From assembly GCA_938028725.1 (NCBI GenBank), contig CALIMH010000004.1, positions 186,001-250,000 of the forward strand: a stretch of DNA of 64,000 bases, given 5' to 3'. The stretch is from an uncultured Anaerolineae bacterium (lineage in GTDB: Bacteria > Chloroflexota > Anaerolineae > J036 > Brachytrichaceae). The position numbers and the translations under genes are program-made. How positions within the stretch are numbered: position 1 is the stretch's first letter; each line of letters begins with the position of its first letter. Shown piece by piece: positions 11,880-17,804 of the stretch. The notes under the pieces were generated by a model. That model searched no databases. It saw nothing but the letters and a program-made list of their open reading frames with translations, and was not told where the DNA came from.

Positions 11880-12674
11880 ATGCCGGAGCTGCCGGAGGTA
11901 GAGACCATCCTGCGCACCCTGCAGGCGAGTGGCCTGGTCGGTCGCATGATTACGCGCGTGCGCGTGTGCTGGCCGCGAGAAGTGGCGCACCCTTCCGCTG
12001 ATGAGTTTGTCCGGCGCCTACAGGGAAATCGGTTCGTGGGCATCGCGCGACACGGCAAGTACGCGCTCCTCCACTTGTCCGATGGCACGTTGGTGGTGCA
12101 TCTGCGCATGAGTGGACGACTGGAGCTGGTGCCGCTGGAGCACTGCTGCGGGCCACACGTGCGCCTCGTGTGGGAGCTGGACGATGGCCGTGCCCTGCGC
12201 TTTGAGGATGCGCGCAAGTTCGGGCGCGCTTGGTGGCTGAAGGACCCCCGCACTCTGCTCGACAAACTAGGCCCCGATGCGCTCGTCGTGGAGGCTGAAA
12301 CGTTTGCCCATCGCCTGGCTGCTCGGCGTGGTGCGCTGAAGGCGCTCCTCCTGGATCAGTCATTTGTGGCGGGGGTGGGCAACATCTATGCGGACGAGGC
12401 GCTCTTTCGTGCTGGTTTGCATCCTCGCCGACTTGCCCAAACGCTCCAGCAACATCAGCGACAAGCGCTGTATCGTGCCTTGCGCGAGACATTGCTCGAC
12501 GGCATCGCTGCAAATGGCGCAAGCTTTGATTGGGTGTATCCTGGCGGCCATTTCCAGAATCATTTTCAGGTTTACGGTCGCGCGGGTTTGGCTTGCGTGC
12601 GCTGTGCAACGCCTATCGTTCGCATCCGCGTGGCACAGCGTAGCACCTACTTCTGCCCTCAGTGCCAGCAGTGA
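11880..12674 (+). CDS. mutM: Formamidopyrimidine-DNA glycosylase (Fpg/MutM)
   Basis: 264 aa bifunctional glycosylase/AP lyase that removes 8-oxoguanine and other oxidised purines from DNA. N-terminal catalytic PELPEVE (Pro2 nucleophile after Met removal), the conserved lysine in HGKYALLHL, helix-two-turn-helix SFVAGVGNIYADEALF, and a C-terminal zinc finger CVRC..CPQC. Length and motif order are standard. It follows the GNAT gene by 3 bp. Confidence 0.96.
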   Translation: MPELPEVETILRTLQASGLVGRMITRVRVCWPREVAHPSADEFVRRLQGNRFVGIARHGKYALLHLSDGTLVVHLRMSGRLELVPLEHCCGPHVRLVWELDDGRALRFEDARKFGRAWWLKDPRTLLDKLGPDALVVEAETFAHRLAARRGALKALLLDQSFVAGVGNIYADEALFRAGLHPRRLAQTLQQHQRQALYRALRETLLDGIAANGASFDWVYPGGHFQNHFQVYGRAGLACVRCATPIVRIRVAQRSTYFCPQCQQ

Positions 12675-12919
12675 GCGCTGCGCCTGGCTTGTCAGTTGTT
12701 TGTAAAGTCCTCCTTATCTAGTGCTCAATTTCACTATCAGAAGCTATCTGGTCGACAGAGGCAACTCGAAGATGAATGTTTTTGATAGTAGGGAAGCCTT
12801 ACGATAGAAGTCGCAAGCCTTGCATCGGGCAGCGTGGAAATCCCAGCTATCCCAAGTCGGTTGGGATAAATCTGCGATAAATCTGCGATAAGTGCCTAGC
12901 CGTAGGTGAGCGAGTAGCG
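12675..12919 (+). promoter_or_regulatory. Upstream region of the HMG-CoA synthase gene with hairpin and 11-bp repeats
   Basis: No gene in this 245-bp gap. It holds an 8-bp inverted repeat TATCCCAA / TTGGGATA (12848-12855 / 12861-12868) merging into two perfect direct copies of GATAAATCTGC (12865-12875, 12876-12886) and a partial third. The spacing of 11 bp is one helical turn. An AGGTGAG site near 12903-12909 may serve as ribosome binding site for ATG 12920. Reads like an operator array for the mevalonate genes (inference). Confidence 0.45.
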
Positions 12920-13984
12920 ATGGAAGTGATGAAGCCTGTGCGACCGGTGGGCATTGTGGGCTACGGGGCTTACGTGCCGCGGTATCGCTTGATCGTTGAA
13001 GAAGTGTCTCAGGTGTGGACGGGAGGCAATGTGGTACCGCCCGTGCGTGAGAAAGCAGTGCCAGGATTGGACGAGGACGTAGCGACAATGAGCATCGAGG
13101 CAGCGCGCAACGCCGTGGCGCGCGCGCAACGCGTGTGCCCTGGTTTCTCCCCCCAGCAGCTACGGGCCGTTTGGGTGGGTAGCGAGTCGCATCCCTACGC
13201 TGTGAAGCCAACCGGCACCATCGTGGCTGAGGCGCTGGGCACTTCGCCCTACATTCAGGCCGGCGATTGGCAGTTCGCCTGCAAGGCCGGCACCGAGGCG
13301 CTTCAAGCTGCCATCGGCTTTGTCGGCAGCGGTATGGCTGACTATGCCCTCGCCATCGGTATGGACGCTGCCCAGGGGCGGCCCGGTGACGCGCTGGAAT
13401 ACACCGCCGGCGCGGGCGGCGCCGCCTTCATCCTCGGCCCGCTGGATTTCGCGCTGGTGGAGATCGAGGGGTCAATCTCCTACGTGACGGACACGCCGGA
13501 CTTCTGGCGGCGGCAATACGAGAAGTTCCCTGAGCACGCTGGCCGCTTCACCGGCGAGCCGGCCTACTTCCACCACATCAGCTCGGCAGCTACTGCGCTA
13601 ATGGAAGCCATGAAGCTGACGCCAGCGGACTTCACCTATGCGGTATTCCACCAGCCGAACGTCAAGTTCCCGCTCAAAGTGGGCGAGGAGCTAGGCTTTC
13701 GGCGCGAGCAACTGAAGCCCGCTTTGCTCGTGAACGAAATCGGCAACACCTACGCCGGCTCCGCGCTCATCGGGCTGACGGCGGTGCTCGATGTTGCCCA
13801 GCCCGGCGAGCGCATCCTGCTCACCTCGTTTGGCAGCGGAGCGGGCAGCGATGCCTTTTGCCTGCAGGTGCGCGCGCCAGCGCCACACGACGGCGTGTGG
13901 ACTACGCGCCAATACGTGCAGCGACGCCGGCCAATTAACTACGCGCAGTACTCGCGGCTAAAGGGAAACTACAAGCTCAACTGA
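12920..13984 (+). CDS. Hydroxymethylglutaryl-CoA synthase, archaeal type
   Basis: 354 aa. Condenses acetyl-CoA with acetoacetyl-CoA to HMG-CoA, the committed entry into the mevalonate route to isoprenoids. Thiolase-fold signatures: catalytic Cys121 in [11 protein letters not shown], His244 in FHQPN, and a GSGAGSDAF end motif. The N-terminus [14 protein letters not shown] and the length match archaeal HMG-CoA synthases rather than the longer eukaryotic/Gram-positive form. It is first of three genes (HMGS, thiolase, DUF35), the arrangement known from archaea in which the three proteins form one complex channelling acetoacetyl-CoA. Regulated possibly through the 11-bp repeats upstream. Confidence 0.93.
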
Positions 13985-13989
13985 GAGAC

Positions 13990-15147
13990 ATGCGAGACGT
14001 TTCCATCATCGGCATTGGCCAGACTAAGGTCGGCGAGCATTGGGATAAGAGCTTGCGCGAGCTAGCCTTTCAGGCGCTAGAAGCCGCCATGCATGACGCC
14101 CAAGTGGAGCGCGTGGACGCGCTGTACGTCGGCAACATGCTCTCGGGCGAACTCACCGGCCAGGAGCACCTCGGCGCCCTGGTGGCTGATTTTGCTGGCT
14201 TGCGCGGCATCGAGGCCATGAAAATCGAGGCCGCTTGTGGGAGCGGTGCCGCTGCGTTGCGCGTCGGCTACATCGCAGTGGCAGGCGGGCTGTGTGACAT
14301 CGTCGCCTGCATCGGCGTGGAGAAAATGACTGACAAGCAAGGCGACATCGCCACCAGCAGCTTAGCTACTGCCGCGGACGCTGACTATGAGGCCCTGCAC
14401 GGATTGAGCTTTGTCGGCATCAACGCGCTGTTAATGCGCCGCTACATGCACGAGCACGGCTACCGCAAGGAAGACTTCGCCAACTTCGCCATCAACGCGC
14501 ACGCCAACGCGACGCGCAACCCCTACGCGATGTTCCCTCACCCGATCACCGCCCAACAGTTTGCTGAGGCCAAGCCAGTGGCGGACCCGATCAACCTGCT
14601 GGACTCGTCGCCGATCGCAGACGGCGCCGCGTGCGTCATTCTTGCGCCGACGTCCATCGCGCGCGAGTTCACCGACAAGCCGGTGCGCGTCCGGGCCATC
14701 ACTGTCGCCACCGACACAGTGGCCGTGCACGACCGCCGTGATCCGCTCTACCTGGAGGGTGCCGCGATCAGCGCCCAGAAGGCGTATGCCATGGCTGGCG
14801 TTGGCCCAGCCGACATTGACTTGTTCGAGCTACATGACGCCTTCACCATCATGAGCGCGCTCTCACTGGAGGCAGCCGGATTCGCCCAGCGGGGCAAGGG
14901 GGTGGCGCTAGCGCTGGACAATGCCATCTCGCTGGATGGCCACATCCCCATTACTACCATGGGCGGCTTGAAGGCGCGCGGGCATCCAGTCGGAGCAACC
15001 GGCATGTATCAAATCGTTGAGGTGGCGATGCAGTTGCGCGGCGAGGCTGGCCCAAATCAAGTGCGCAACGCCCGCTTGGGCATGGCACAAAACATCGGCG
15101 GCAGCGGCGCTACCGTGATCACCACTATCCTCGAGGCAGACCAGTGA
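13990..15147 (+). CDS. Acetoacetyl-CoA thiolase, archaeal/SCP2 type
   Basis: 385 aa. Makes acetoacetyl-CoA from two acetyl-CoA. Nucleophile Cys83 in EAACGSGAAAL, base His in ELHDAFT, and GHPVGATG near the end. The usual second catalytic Cys (CxG of classical thiolases) is replaced in QNIGGSGAT, the pattern of archaeal and SCP-x thiolases. It starts 5 bp after the HMG-CoA synthase stop, so the unfavourable thiolase reaction can be pulled forward by the synthase in a complex. Confidence 0.92.
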   Translation: MRDVSIIGIGQTKVGEHWDKSLRELAFQALEAAMHDAQVERVDALYVGNMLSGELTGQEHLGALVADFAGLRGIEAMKIEAACGSGAAALRVGYIAVAGGLCDIVACIGVEKMTDKQGDIATSSLATAADADYEALHGLSFVGINALLMRRYMHEHGYRKEDFANFAINAHANATRNPYAMFPHPITAQQFAEAKPVADPINLLDSSPIADGAACVILAPTSIAREFTDKPVRVRAITVATDTVAVHDRRDPLYLEGAAISAQKAYAMAGVGPADIDLFELHDAFTIMSALSLEAAGFAQRGKGVALALDNAISLDGHIPITTMGGLKARGHPVGATGMYQIVEVAMQLRGEAGPNQVRNARLGMAQNIGGSGATVITTILEADQ

Positions 15148-15202
15148 TCAGTGCGCAGGCGGTTGCGCCTGCGGTAGCAAACAAATTCGAGCGAGATAGC
15201 TT

Positions 15203-15622
15203 ATGGAAGTAGCACGATTCTGGCGAACAACTGAGCAGCGTTACCGGCTGGTGGGCGAGGTTTGCCCACGCTGTCACACAAAGATCTTTCCACCGCGCGA
15301 CGTATGCCCGGCCTGTGAAGCCGAAGCTAAGACCCTTTATCAGTTCAGCGGCAAGGGCGAGGTGTACTCTTTCACCACCATCCACAGCGCGCCGCGCGGC
15401 TTCGAGAAATACGCGCCATACATGGTGGCGCTAGTGCGCTTGGAGGAAGGGCCGTTGGTCACCGCTCAGCTCACCGACGTGGATGAATCCGAGGTGTACA
15501 TCGGGATGCCGGTCGAGATGGTGACGCGCGTGCTGCGCGAAGATGACAAGCGCGGCATGATCGTGTACGGCTATAAGTTCCGTCCCGTCCGCCAGGCTGA
15601 GGCCGAGCGCCAACTAGCGTAG
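15203..15622 (+). CDS. DUF35 / OB-fold acyl-CoA-binding zinc-ribbon protein
   Basis: 139 aa with rubredoxin-like zinc ribbon Cys21-x2-Cys24-x10-Cys35-x2-Cys38 followed by an OB fold (GKGEVYSFTTIH, YMVALVRLEEGP). In archaea the homologue bridges thiolase and HMG-CoA synthase and contributes to a shared CoA-binding site. The gene follows the thiolase by 55 bp on the same strand, so that role is the best inference. No catalytic residues of its own are expected. Confidence 0.9.
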   Translation: MEVARFWRTTEQRYRLVGEVCPRCHTKIFPPRDVCPACEAEAKTLYQFSGKGEVYSFTTIHSAPRGFEKYAPYMVALVRLEEGPLVTAQLTDVDESEVYIGMPVEMVTRVLREDDKRGMIVYGYKFRPVRQAEAERQLA

Positions 15623-15658: not shown

Positions 15659-16015
15659 TCACGGCGCTGGGTTGAATATCGCGCTGATGAACAACGGCAG
15701 CCCTGTCTGGCTGTCCTCAACGGTCAGCAGGAAGGGACGGTCCACGCGCATCACGAAAGGTTCTCCCGCTGAGGGCAGTAAAGCAGTCTCAACCATCTCC
15801 ACCGCGGTGACTGCTGCAGCCTCTGCCCCCAACTCGTTGACTTCCAGGAGTGTGCGCTGCTGAACCTCAGAGATACGGATTGGCGGCATCTGGTGTGTCG
15901 CAGGGGCAGCTGTTGGCGAGCTTGGTTGCGGCGCGGGGGCAGGAGAGGCGCAGCTTGCCAACAGCAGCGCCAGCATCAGCAATGTTGCGGGAGGTGGCTT
16001 CAGCGCAATAAGCAT
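15659..16015 (-). CDS. Miniature serpin-like lipoprotein (reactive-centre loop and C-terminal strands only)
   Basis: 118 aa. A lipoprotein signal ends in lipobox L19-A-S-C22, followed by a Pro/Ala/Ser linker (23-46). The rest matches only the C-terminal quarter of a serpin: strand RISEVQQRTLLEVNE, the hinge ELGAEAAAVT (60-69, serpin P17-P8 pattern EEGTEAAAAT), a loop to about residue 88, then the DRPFLLTVEDSQTG and PLFISAIFNP strands (92-116). A whole serpin needs about 350-400 residues, and no other serpin segment is in the surrounding DNA. TACACT lies 7 nt before the ATG, and the frame and signal peptide are intact, so it may be a functional gene rather than debris. Inhibition by the normal loop-insertion mechanism is impossible without sheet A. 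A deletion derivative is the alternative. Confidence 0.7.
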   Translation of the reverse strand: MLIALKPPPATLLMLALLLASCASPAPAPQPSSPTAAPATHQMPPIRISEVQQRTLLEVNELGAEAAAVTAVEMVETALLPSAGEPFVMRVDRPFLLTVEDSQTGLPLFISAIFNPAP

Positions 16016-16048: not shown

Positions 16049-16858
16049 CTACGTGGCTGCGTCCATAAGGCGTTGGCGGGCGAGCCGGACTGCGTCGGGG
16101 TTTATGTCAATGCCAACCCATCGCCGGCCCAGCTGCTGGGCGGCCACCAGCGTGGTGCCAGAGCCGCAGAACGGGTCAAGCACCCAATCGCCGGGTCGGC
16201 TGGCCAGCGTGAGGATGCGCTCCAACAGCGCCACTGGCTTCTGCGTGGGGTAGCCGACGCGCTCGCGTGCGGTAGGGCTGATGGCGGGGATGTCCCACAC
16301 GTCGCTGAGCAGCTTACCTTCCTTCAAGTAATAGCGGCGGCCGTAGCTCAGCATGTAGCGTCGGCCGTCTGCATCGTGATGGCGATACTTATTCAGCATA
16401 GCTGGGGTGGGTGGCTCGCGCAGCGGTTGGAAGCAGTAGTTGCGCGAGCGGGCGTACCAGAAGATCGTGTCGTGTTTGCGAGGAAGGTGGCGGCTGCTGC
16501 GCGCTGCGCCAAGGCCATAGCGCCAGATGATCTCGTTGACGAATTGCCCCTCGCCGCGCTCCACTTCAAACACCTCATCCAGCAACAGGCGCACGTGGTG
16601 GCTGAGCCGCCAATCGCAGTGGAAGAACAGCGAACCTTCCGTCGAGAGCAGGCGGTGCATTGCTTGCAGGCGTGGGCGCATCCAGTGGATGTAGTCGGTC
16701 GGCGAGCCGAGCGCGTCGTCGAAGTGGCCGTTGGTGGCCACACGGCGCGAAGCGGTGTTGAAGGGTGGGTCGAGGTAAATTAGCGCGAAGCTCGCGGCCG
16801 GCAAGGAGGAGAGCACTGCCAGGCAATCGGCGCAGAACAACTGCGAGGCTGGCATCAT
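16049..16858 (-). CDS. N4/N6 DNA methyltransferase (beta class), no partner nuclease
   Basis: 269 aa. Catalytic motif IV LIYLDPPFNT (Asp30-Phe33) comes first and SAM-binding motif I DPFCGSGTTLVAA (from about 228) last, the beta-class order of N6-adenine/N4-cytosine methylases. GYPTQKPVALLERIL precedes motif I as in PF01555 members. Its ATG overlaps the stop of the upstream TauE-family gene (ATGA), fixing the start; reading further upstream only enters the permease in another frame. No restriction endonuclease or specificity gene is nearby, so it is an orphan or epigenetic methylase. The recognition site cannot be predicted. Confidence 0.9.
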   Translation of the reverse strand: MMPASQLFCADCLAVLSSLPAASFALIYLDPPFNTASRRVATNGHFDDALGSPTDYIHWMRPRLQAMHRLLSTEGSLFFHCDWRLSHHVRLLLDEVFEVERGEGQFVNEIIWRYGLGAARSSRHLPRKHDTIFWYARSRNYCFQPLREPPTPAMLNKYRHHDADGRRYMLSYGRRYYLKEGKLLSDVWDIPAISPTARERVGYPTQKPVALLERILTLASRPGDWVLDPFCGSGTTLVAAQQLGRRWVGIDINPDAVRLARQRLMDAAT

Positions 16859-17649
16859 ATCGCGCGAACGAACAAGTAGGCTGAGGCGACCAGGCCCATC
16901 AGCACGACAAATCGGCGTAGCAGCGTCTGGTCCACGCGCTTGGCCAACCGCGCGCCGAGGTAACCGCCCAACATGCCGCCGGCGCCCATGAGGATGGCCA
17001 GCGGCCAATTCACAATGCCGCTGAGGGCGAAAAACAGCAGTGCCACACCGTTGATAATGGCGGCGAGGCCAGTCTTGAGCGCGTTCATGCGATGGATGTC
17101 TTGCAAGCCCATTAGGCTGAGCGAAGCCAGCATCAAGATGCCGATGCCGGCGCCGAAGTAGCCGCCATAGGTGGCGACAAACAACTGAAAGCCGATCCCC
17201 CAGAGGCGCGCCAGCATTGAGACGCGCCCCTCGTTGGCGTGTTGGATGGTCTCGATGTTCCGGGCAGCGATGCGGTCGAAAACATCGCGAGCGGCAAAAA
17301 TAAGCGTGGCGAACAGCACGAGCACCGGCACGATCAGGCTGAACAGCGCCGGTGGCGTGCGCGTGAGCAGCAGCGCACCCAGCAGCCCGCCTGCCAGGCT
17401 GGGCAAGAACAGCACCACCCACAGCTTGCACATCGGCTTCAGGTCCTCACGGTAAGCCCACACACTGCCTAACGTCCCTGGCCAAAGTGCCGCTGTGTTG
17501 GTGGCGTTGGCGATGATTTTATCCACACCAAATATCACCAAGGCAGGGAAGGCGATCAAGCTGCCGCCGCCTGCCACCGCGTTGATTGCGCCGCCGACAC
17601 ATGCAGCAAGGAACAGCACAGCCAAGCCGATGAGATATGTCCAATCCAT
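16855..17649 (-). CDS. TauE/SafE-family sulfite/organosulfonate exporter-like permease
   Basis: 264 aa with about eight membrane helices. GGxxNAVAGGGSLIAFPALVIFG near the N-terminus and GGMLGGYLGARLAKRV in the second half are the two internal repeats of the TauE/SafE family. Members move sulfite, sulfoacetate or related anions, but most are uncharacterised. ATG 17649 is chosen because the preceding 28 codons are hydrophilic and unlike the family. The stop overlaps the methyltransferase start, an odd partnership. A 155-bp stretch upstream to 17804 shows nothing recognisable. Confidence 0.85.
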   Translation of the reverse strand: MDWTYLIGLAVLFLAACVGGAINAVAGGGSLIAFPALVIFGVDKIIANATNTAALWPGTLGSVWAYREDLKPMCKLWVVLFLPSLAGGLLGALLLTRTPPALFSLIVPVLVLFATLIFAARDVFDRIAARNIETIQHANEGRVSMLARLWGIGFQLFVATYGGYFGAGIGILMLASLSLMGLQDIHRMNALKTGLAAIINGVALLFFALSGIVNWPLAILMGAGGMLGGYLGARLAKRVDQTLLRRFVVLMGLVASAYLFVRAI

Positions 17650-17804
17650 GTGGCCGCTAAGCGAAGTGGTAGTGCGTGAACGTTGTCCCGTGCATCGCCT
17701 GGCTCGCGTGGCATCCACCAGGCGGCCGGGCAAGGGTCAAGCATAACCCAACTTGCAGCTTGGAGCGGCTTGTGGCTTGAGCACGCGGCGGCTGCGTCAG
17801 CAGC

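Follow-up and report, generated by a model that had tools for sequence, protein, structure and literature searches.

A short gene in the 64 kb window (the whole stretch of DNA analysed here) is most probably a relic, private to its lineage, of a surface lipoprotein serpin that lost its body by an in-frame deletion and now lies away from its original site. The gene is a minus-strand open frame of 118 codons, starting at 16015 and stopping at 15659, in which a lipoprotein leader is fused in frame to a serpin C-terminus (Table 1). Its product probably has no serpin function.

Table 1. The short gene, its parts and its neighbours in the window
Feature	Position	Strand	Basis
118-codon ORF, lipoprotein leader plus serpin C-terminus	15659..16015	-	Sequence, profile search, genome search
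Lipoprotein signal, residues 1-22 (MLIALKPPPATLLMLALLLASC); lipobox LASC, Cys22 at 15950-15952	15950..16015	-	Sequence
Pro/Ala/Ser-rich linker, residues 23-42, like that of full-length family members	15890..15949	-	Comparison with family serpins
Serpin C-terminal segment, residues 43-118: end of s5A, hinge, reactive-centre loop, s1C, s4B, s5B (Pfam profile 302-370)	15662..15889	-	Homology
Hinge P17-P8, ELGAEAAAVT, residues 61-70	15806..15835	-	Alignment with 39 full-length serpins
Gln53, replacing the shutter histidine (His334 of alpha1-antitrypsin; 39/39 class serpins)	15857..15859	-	Alignment
Val99, replacing Ile (invariant, 39/39)	15719..15721	-	Alignment
Ser111, replacing Gly (Gly386 of alpha1-antitrypsin; invariant, 39/39)	15683..15685	-	Alignment
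DNA N6/N4 methyltransferase gene, directly upstream of the short gene, same strand, 33 nt gap	16049..16858	-	Relatives' orthologues without a nearby serpin
TauE/SafE-type permease gene, overlapping the methyltransferase start	16855..17733	-	Sequence
ChsH2/DUF35-type OB-fold gene, convergent with the short gene	15203..15622	+	Relatives' orthologues without a nearby serpin

The 118-residue protein is a serpin by homologous descent. Its match to PF00079 is well above chance (E 1.5e-15; 57.7 bits against a cut-off of 27), and among PDB serpins phmmer gave 5ncs_A as the best hit (3.8e-9); NCBIfam gave no match. The first-pass annotation, which had proposed a profile search to see which match states are covered, had placed a 118-residue protein at 15659-16015, and both the position and the length are correct, the strand being minus (16015 to 15659). 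The intact lipoprotein signal ending at Cys22 that it described is borne out by the lipobox L-A-S-C, and the hinge ELGAEAAAVT and the DRPF and FISAIFNP strands were all located, the latter two at residues 91-95 (as VDRPF) and 109-116. Its account of the segment as the last quarter of a serpin holds as regards the C-terminus but not the extent: the significant match is of 76 residues and covers only the end of the profile (302-370 of 370), which at 69 of 370 positions is the last fifth. Judged by the N-terminal lipobox and cysteine, the protein would be a bacterial lipoprotein.

To trap a protease, a serpin inserts its cleaved loop into sheet A. A complete serpin fold including sheet A takes about 350-400 residues; here only the part matched by the end of the profile is present. 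Since sheet A is absent, the protein should be unable to act as a serpin or to trap a protease. The genome, 94.5% complete (2.28 Mb in 19 contigs) and the sole one representing its genus, has no serpin match besides the short gene, and neither a second serpin nor a fragment of a serpin body was found elsewhere in it; a split serpin, with its body encoded at another locus, is ruled out by this single match. No compact fold was predicted by AlphaFold2, which with 37 homologous C-termini returned a mean pLDDT of 63.6 and a pTM of 0.28; only the s4B-s5B hairpin (residues 91-118) was confident, with s5A and the loop near 50. The prediction fits a peptide that once depended on a body now gone.

The gene is shortened relative to the intact homologues of its relatives. 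Within the family (28 genomes; Chloroflexota, Anaerolineae) full-length serpins occur in four other genera, g3, g6, g7 and g8, and nearly all of them carry a lipobox leader and a Pro-rich linker; the lipoprotein part of the short gene is therefore inherited and ordinary. When placed in a tree of full-length serpins, the window segment comes out as sister of genus g3 (support of 98 for the joint clade and 91 for g3 alone), and its terminal branch is about twice as long as that of its nearest relative, L092 (0.86 vs 0.40).

In g3 (genome G015), g6, g7 and g8 the serpin gene immediately follows either the yvcK-gap pair or gap, and most of the relatives with a serpin have it behind the pair. These two genes, which were recognised from sequence without a profile search, are also neighbours in the genome of the window (gap 87% identical); they lie about 66 kb away on the same contig, with no serpin left beside them. 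At this locus (L120, G000:C4:256000-275000) yvcK and gap occupy 12041-14564, and 55 nt separate gap from a convergent gene for an unrelated 745-residue protein. A full-length serpin at the same locus in the relatives was also considered and rejected, none being found beside their DUF35 or methyltransferase orthologues. Since both the yvcK-gap site of this genome and the relatives' DUF35 and methyltransferase sites are without a serpin, the ancestral site has lost its gene and the short form stands at a new site. The deletion may have come before or after the move.

The search for PF00079 covered 396 class genomes and 400 drawn from the phylum, overlapping sets that hold about 740 distinct Chloroflexota genomes. 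No second intact gene joining a lipoprotein leader to a serpin C-terminus was found in the class genomes, in the phylum genomes or among 80 cross-bacterial loci. Other matches confined to the C-terminus in the class and phylum searches lay at contig ends or in genes broken by frameshifts or stops, or were remnants lacking a lipoprotein leader; most of the class matches away from contig ends were inspected in sequence, and the phylum matches were judged by coordinates and frames only. The GTDB species contigs gave no match when searched with the 118-residue protein alone. Scanning them with the C-terminal alignment yielded the 80 loci that were kept, and in all but three of them the match is preceded by an open frame of 300 residues or more. 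One of the three (L200) is masked by N; the others, L152 (Sporosarcina thermotolerans) and L153 (a Leptolyngbyaceae MAG), each hold at about 1400-2720 a full-length lipoprotein serpin with, apparently, one frameshift. Isolated leaderless serpin C-terminal remnants were seen in other Anaerolineae genomes (L111, 2072-2347; L112, 990-1232; L110, 1645-2061), which suggests repeated partial loss of serpins within the class. The first-pass annotation had taken absence of the short form from all relatives, together with a full-length serpin at the same locus there, as the mark of a private deletion. The short form is indeed missing from the relatives, but the full-length genes do not occupy the corresponding position; the ancestral site lies elsewhere on the same contig and has lost its serpin.

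Three of the 14 positions that are invariant in 39 full-length serpins of the class are changed in the window protein (His to Gln at 53, Ile to Val at 99 and Gly to Ser at 111), compared with none or one otherwise invariant position altered in each of the 39. The first of these is the conserved shutter histidine, present in 39/39. In alpha1-antitrypsin it is His334, whose bonding partner in the shutter is Asn186 of strand 3A (PMC8198886); the short protein lacks this strand. The inhibitory hinge is kept, with 7/7 invariant positions unchanged (P17 Glu, P15 Gly, small P12-P9 and P8 Thr); with 0/7 changed in the hinge against 3/7 elsewhere, the contrast does not reach significance (one-sided exact p about 0.10).

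In codon models omega = 1 over the whole terminal branch was rejected (LRT 18.6), a branch which spans the full-length period and whose synonymous sites are saturated, its length being at the bound. Because it includes the time spent as a full-length gene and is saturated, dN/dS cannot separate selection before the deletion from selection after it. When neutral tails of 0.05, 0.2, 0.3 and 0.4 substitutions per codon were added in a two-phase codon model, its likelihood fell by 0.3, 1.2, 1.8 and 2.5 log units respectively; a neutral phase is not required, up to about 0.3 neutral substitutions per codon are tolerated and zero is preferred. The three changes among 14 invariant positions suggest a neutral tail of roughly 0.25-0.3, which is within the tolerated limit. 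After 0.3 neutral substitutions per codon the chance of finding no stop codon is about 0.56, and the open frame is therefore no evidence of function; the frame is unbroken, as noted at first pass, and its survival is unremarkable.

The permease and methyltransferase genes upstream likely form one transcription unit. Since the short gene starts 33 nt past the methyltransferase stop on the same strand, read-through would be the more natural route to a transcript. A TACACT hexamer does sit 7 nt before the ATG, where it had been read as a promoter-like sign of expression, but the 64 kb window holds 41 sites of this grade, matching the sigma-70 consensus at 8/12 or better, and a stricter promoter scan found none, so that the hexamer is no evidence of expression. 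The methyltransferase gene is solitary; its orthologues (about 60-68% identity) are present in most family genomes, without the window's neighbour genes beside them. On the other side, HMG-CoA-synthase-like, thiolase and ChsH2/DUF35-type genes stand in a row on the plus strand at 12920-15622, a cluster kept in nearly all relatives examined.

In the most probable history, an in-frame deletion of about 300 codons would have removed the serpin body between the linker that follows the lipid-anchored cysteine and strand s5A, with the junction presumably at or near the C-terminal end of the Pro/Ala/Ser linker. The leader, the reactive-centre loop and strands s1C-s4B-s5B would have remained. The yvcK-gap-serpin locus has been emptied of its serpin in this genome, and the shortened copy lies elsewhere, behind the methyltransferase gene. 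If transcribed at all, probably by read-through, the gene would yield a lipid-anchored, largely unfolded peptide, and the relic would be recent enough for its frame to have survived. A deletion relic was among the options named at first pass and is the one that the results favour: no relative searched has the short form, full-length lipoprotein serpins occur among those relatives, and residues that depend on the body are changed. Against it stand the unbroken frame, the preserved leader and whole hinge, and codon models that need no neutral phase.

The intact leader, linker, hinge and loop speak for a functional protease bait, an anchored and exposed loop that is cleaved as a substrate and so spares other surface proteins, or that inhibits weakly and reversibly. 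The non-significant tendency of changes to fall outside the hinge (p about 0.10) points the same way, as do the free serpin C-terminal peptides that occur in humans and are reportedly active (PMC5249162, PMC4921625). However, hinge conservation serves insertion into sheet A and not a substrate role, no second genome has the short form, no fold is predicted, and there is neither promoter nor ribosome-binding evidence for the gene. The bait proposed at first pass thus gained no positive support from conservation in a second genome, fold or promoter, and is unlikely; that a lipid-anchored loop peptide was selected as sacrificial surface bait after loss of the body is slightly less likely again. 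The other role suggested there, a ligand acting in trans by inserting into sheet A of another serpin and so blocking or modulating it, has a precedent in vitro, where hinge peptides do this to Manduca serpin-3 (PMC7359039). It is unsupported within the cell, as no other serpin match exists in a genome 94.5% complete and the target would have to be foreign or encoded in the missing ~5%; we regard it as very improbable indeed.

Two further explanations concern how the gene arose. Mis-assembly of the draft could have shortened a full-length gene, and the assembly is indeed in 19 contigs with one genome representing the genus; but the gene is internal to a contig of 291 kb, its junction is clean and in frame, and changes at body-specific invariant residues would not be expected in a working serpin that had been mis-assembled. 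An artefact is accordingly improbable. Alternatively, a serpin C-terminus may have been joined at the new site to the leader of another lipoprotein, a possibility that gains from the locus not being syntenic with any relative's serpin locus. The leader and Pro/Ala/Ser linker are of the type seen in the family's own serpins, which makes an internal deletion the simpler account, although leaders, being short and variable, cannot prove it; a new fusion is a shade more improbable than an artefact. A relocated deletion relic remains the preferred reading.

As a relic, the gene records that one lineage with a small genome has lost its surface serpin. We know of no natural anchored serpin loop without a serpin; should the short form prove to be produced and maintained by selection, it would be the first, and it would set the loop's role as bait apart from the body's role in trapping. 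Why most prokaryotes have lost serpins is an open question (PMC8233489), to which the relic adds a small data point.

Several known systems resemble the short gene in part. Short C-terminal transcripts and peptides of human alpha1-antitrypsin (PMC5249162, PMC4921625) share with it a C-terminus apart from the body, but their source is alternative transcription or proteolysis in the presence of a full-length gene, and they are unanchored and of unrelated origin; since such human peptides are known, a bodiless serpin C-terminus is in itself no novelty. The loop peptides that insert into sheet A (PMC7359039) likewise present a hinge without a body, but are synthetic and need a target serpin, of which there is none in this genome. 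The Anaerolineae remnants L111 and L112 consist, like the short gene, of about 80 C-terminal residues with no body; unlike it, they are without a lipoprotein leader and look decayed. The full-length lipoprotein serpins of genus g3 (L092, L090 and L091) have the same lipobox leader and Pro-rich linker and a C-terminal segment 51-55% identical by BLASTP. Unlike the short gene, which is without about 300 residues, the full-length serpins of the family have the entire fold of ~370 residues and keep the invariant His, Ile and Gly.
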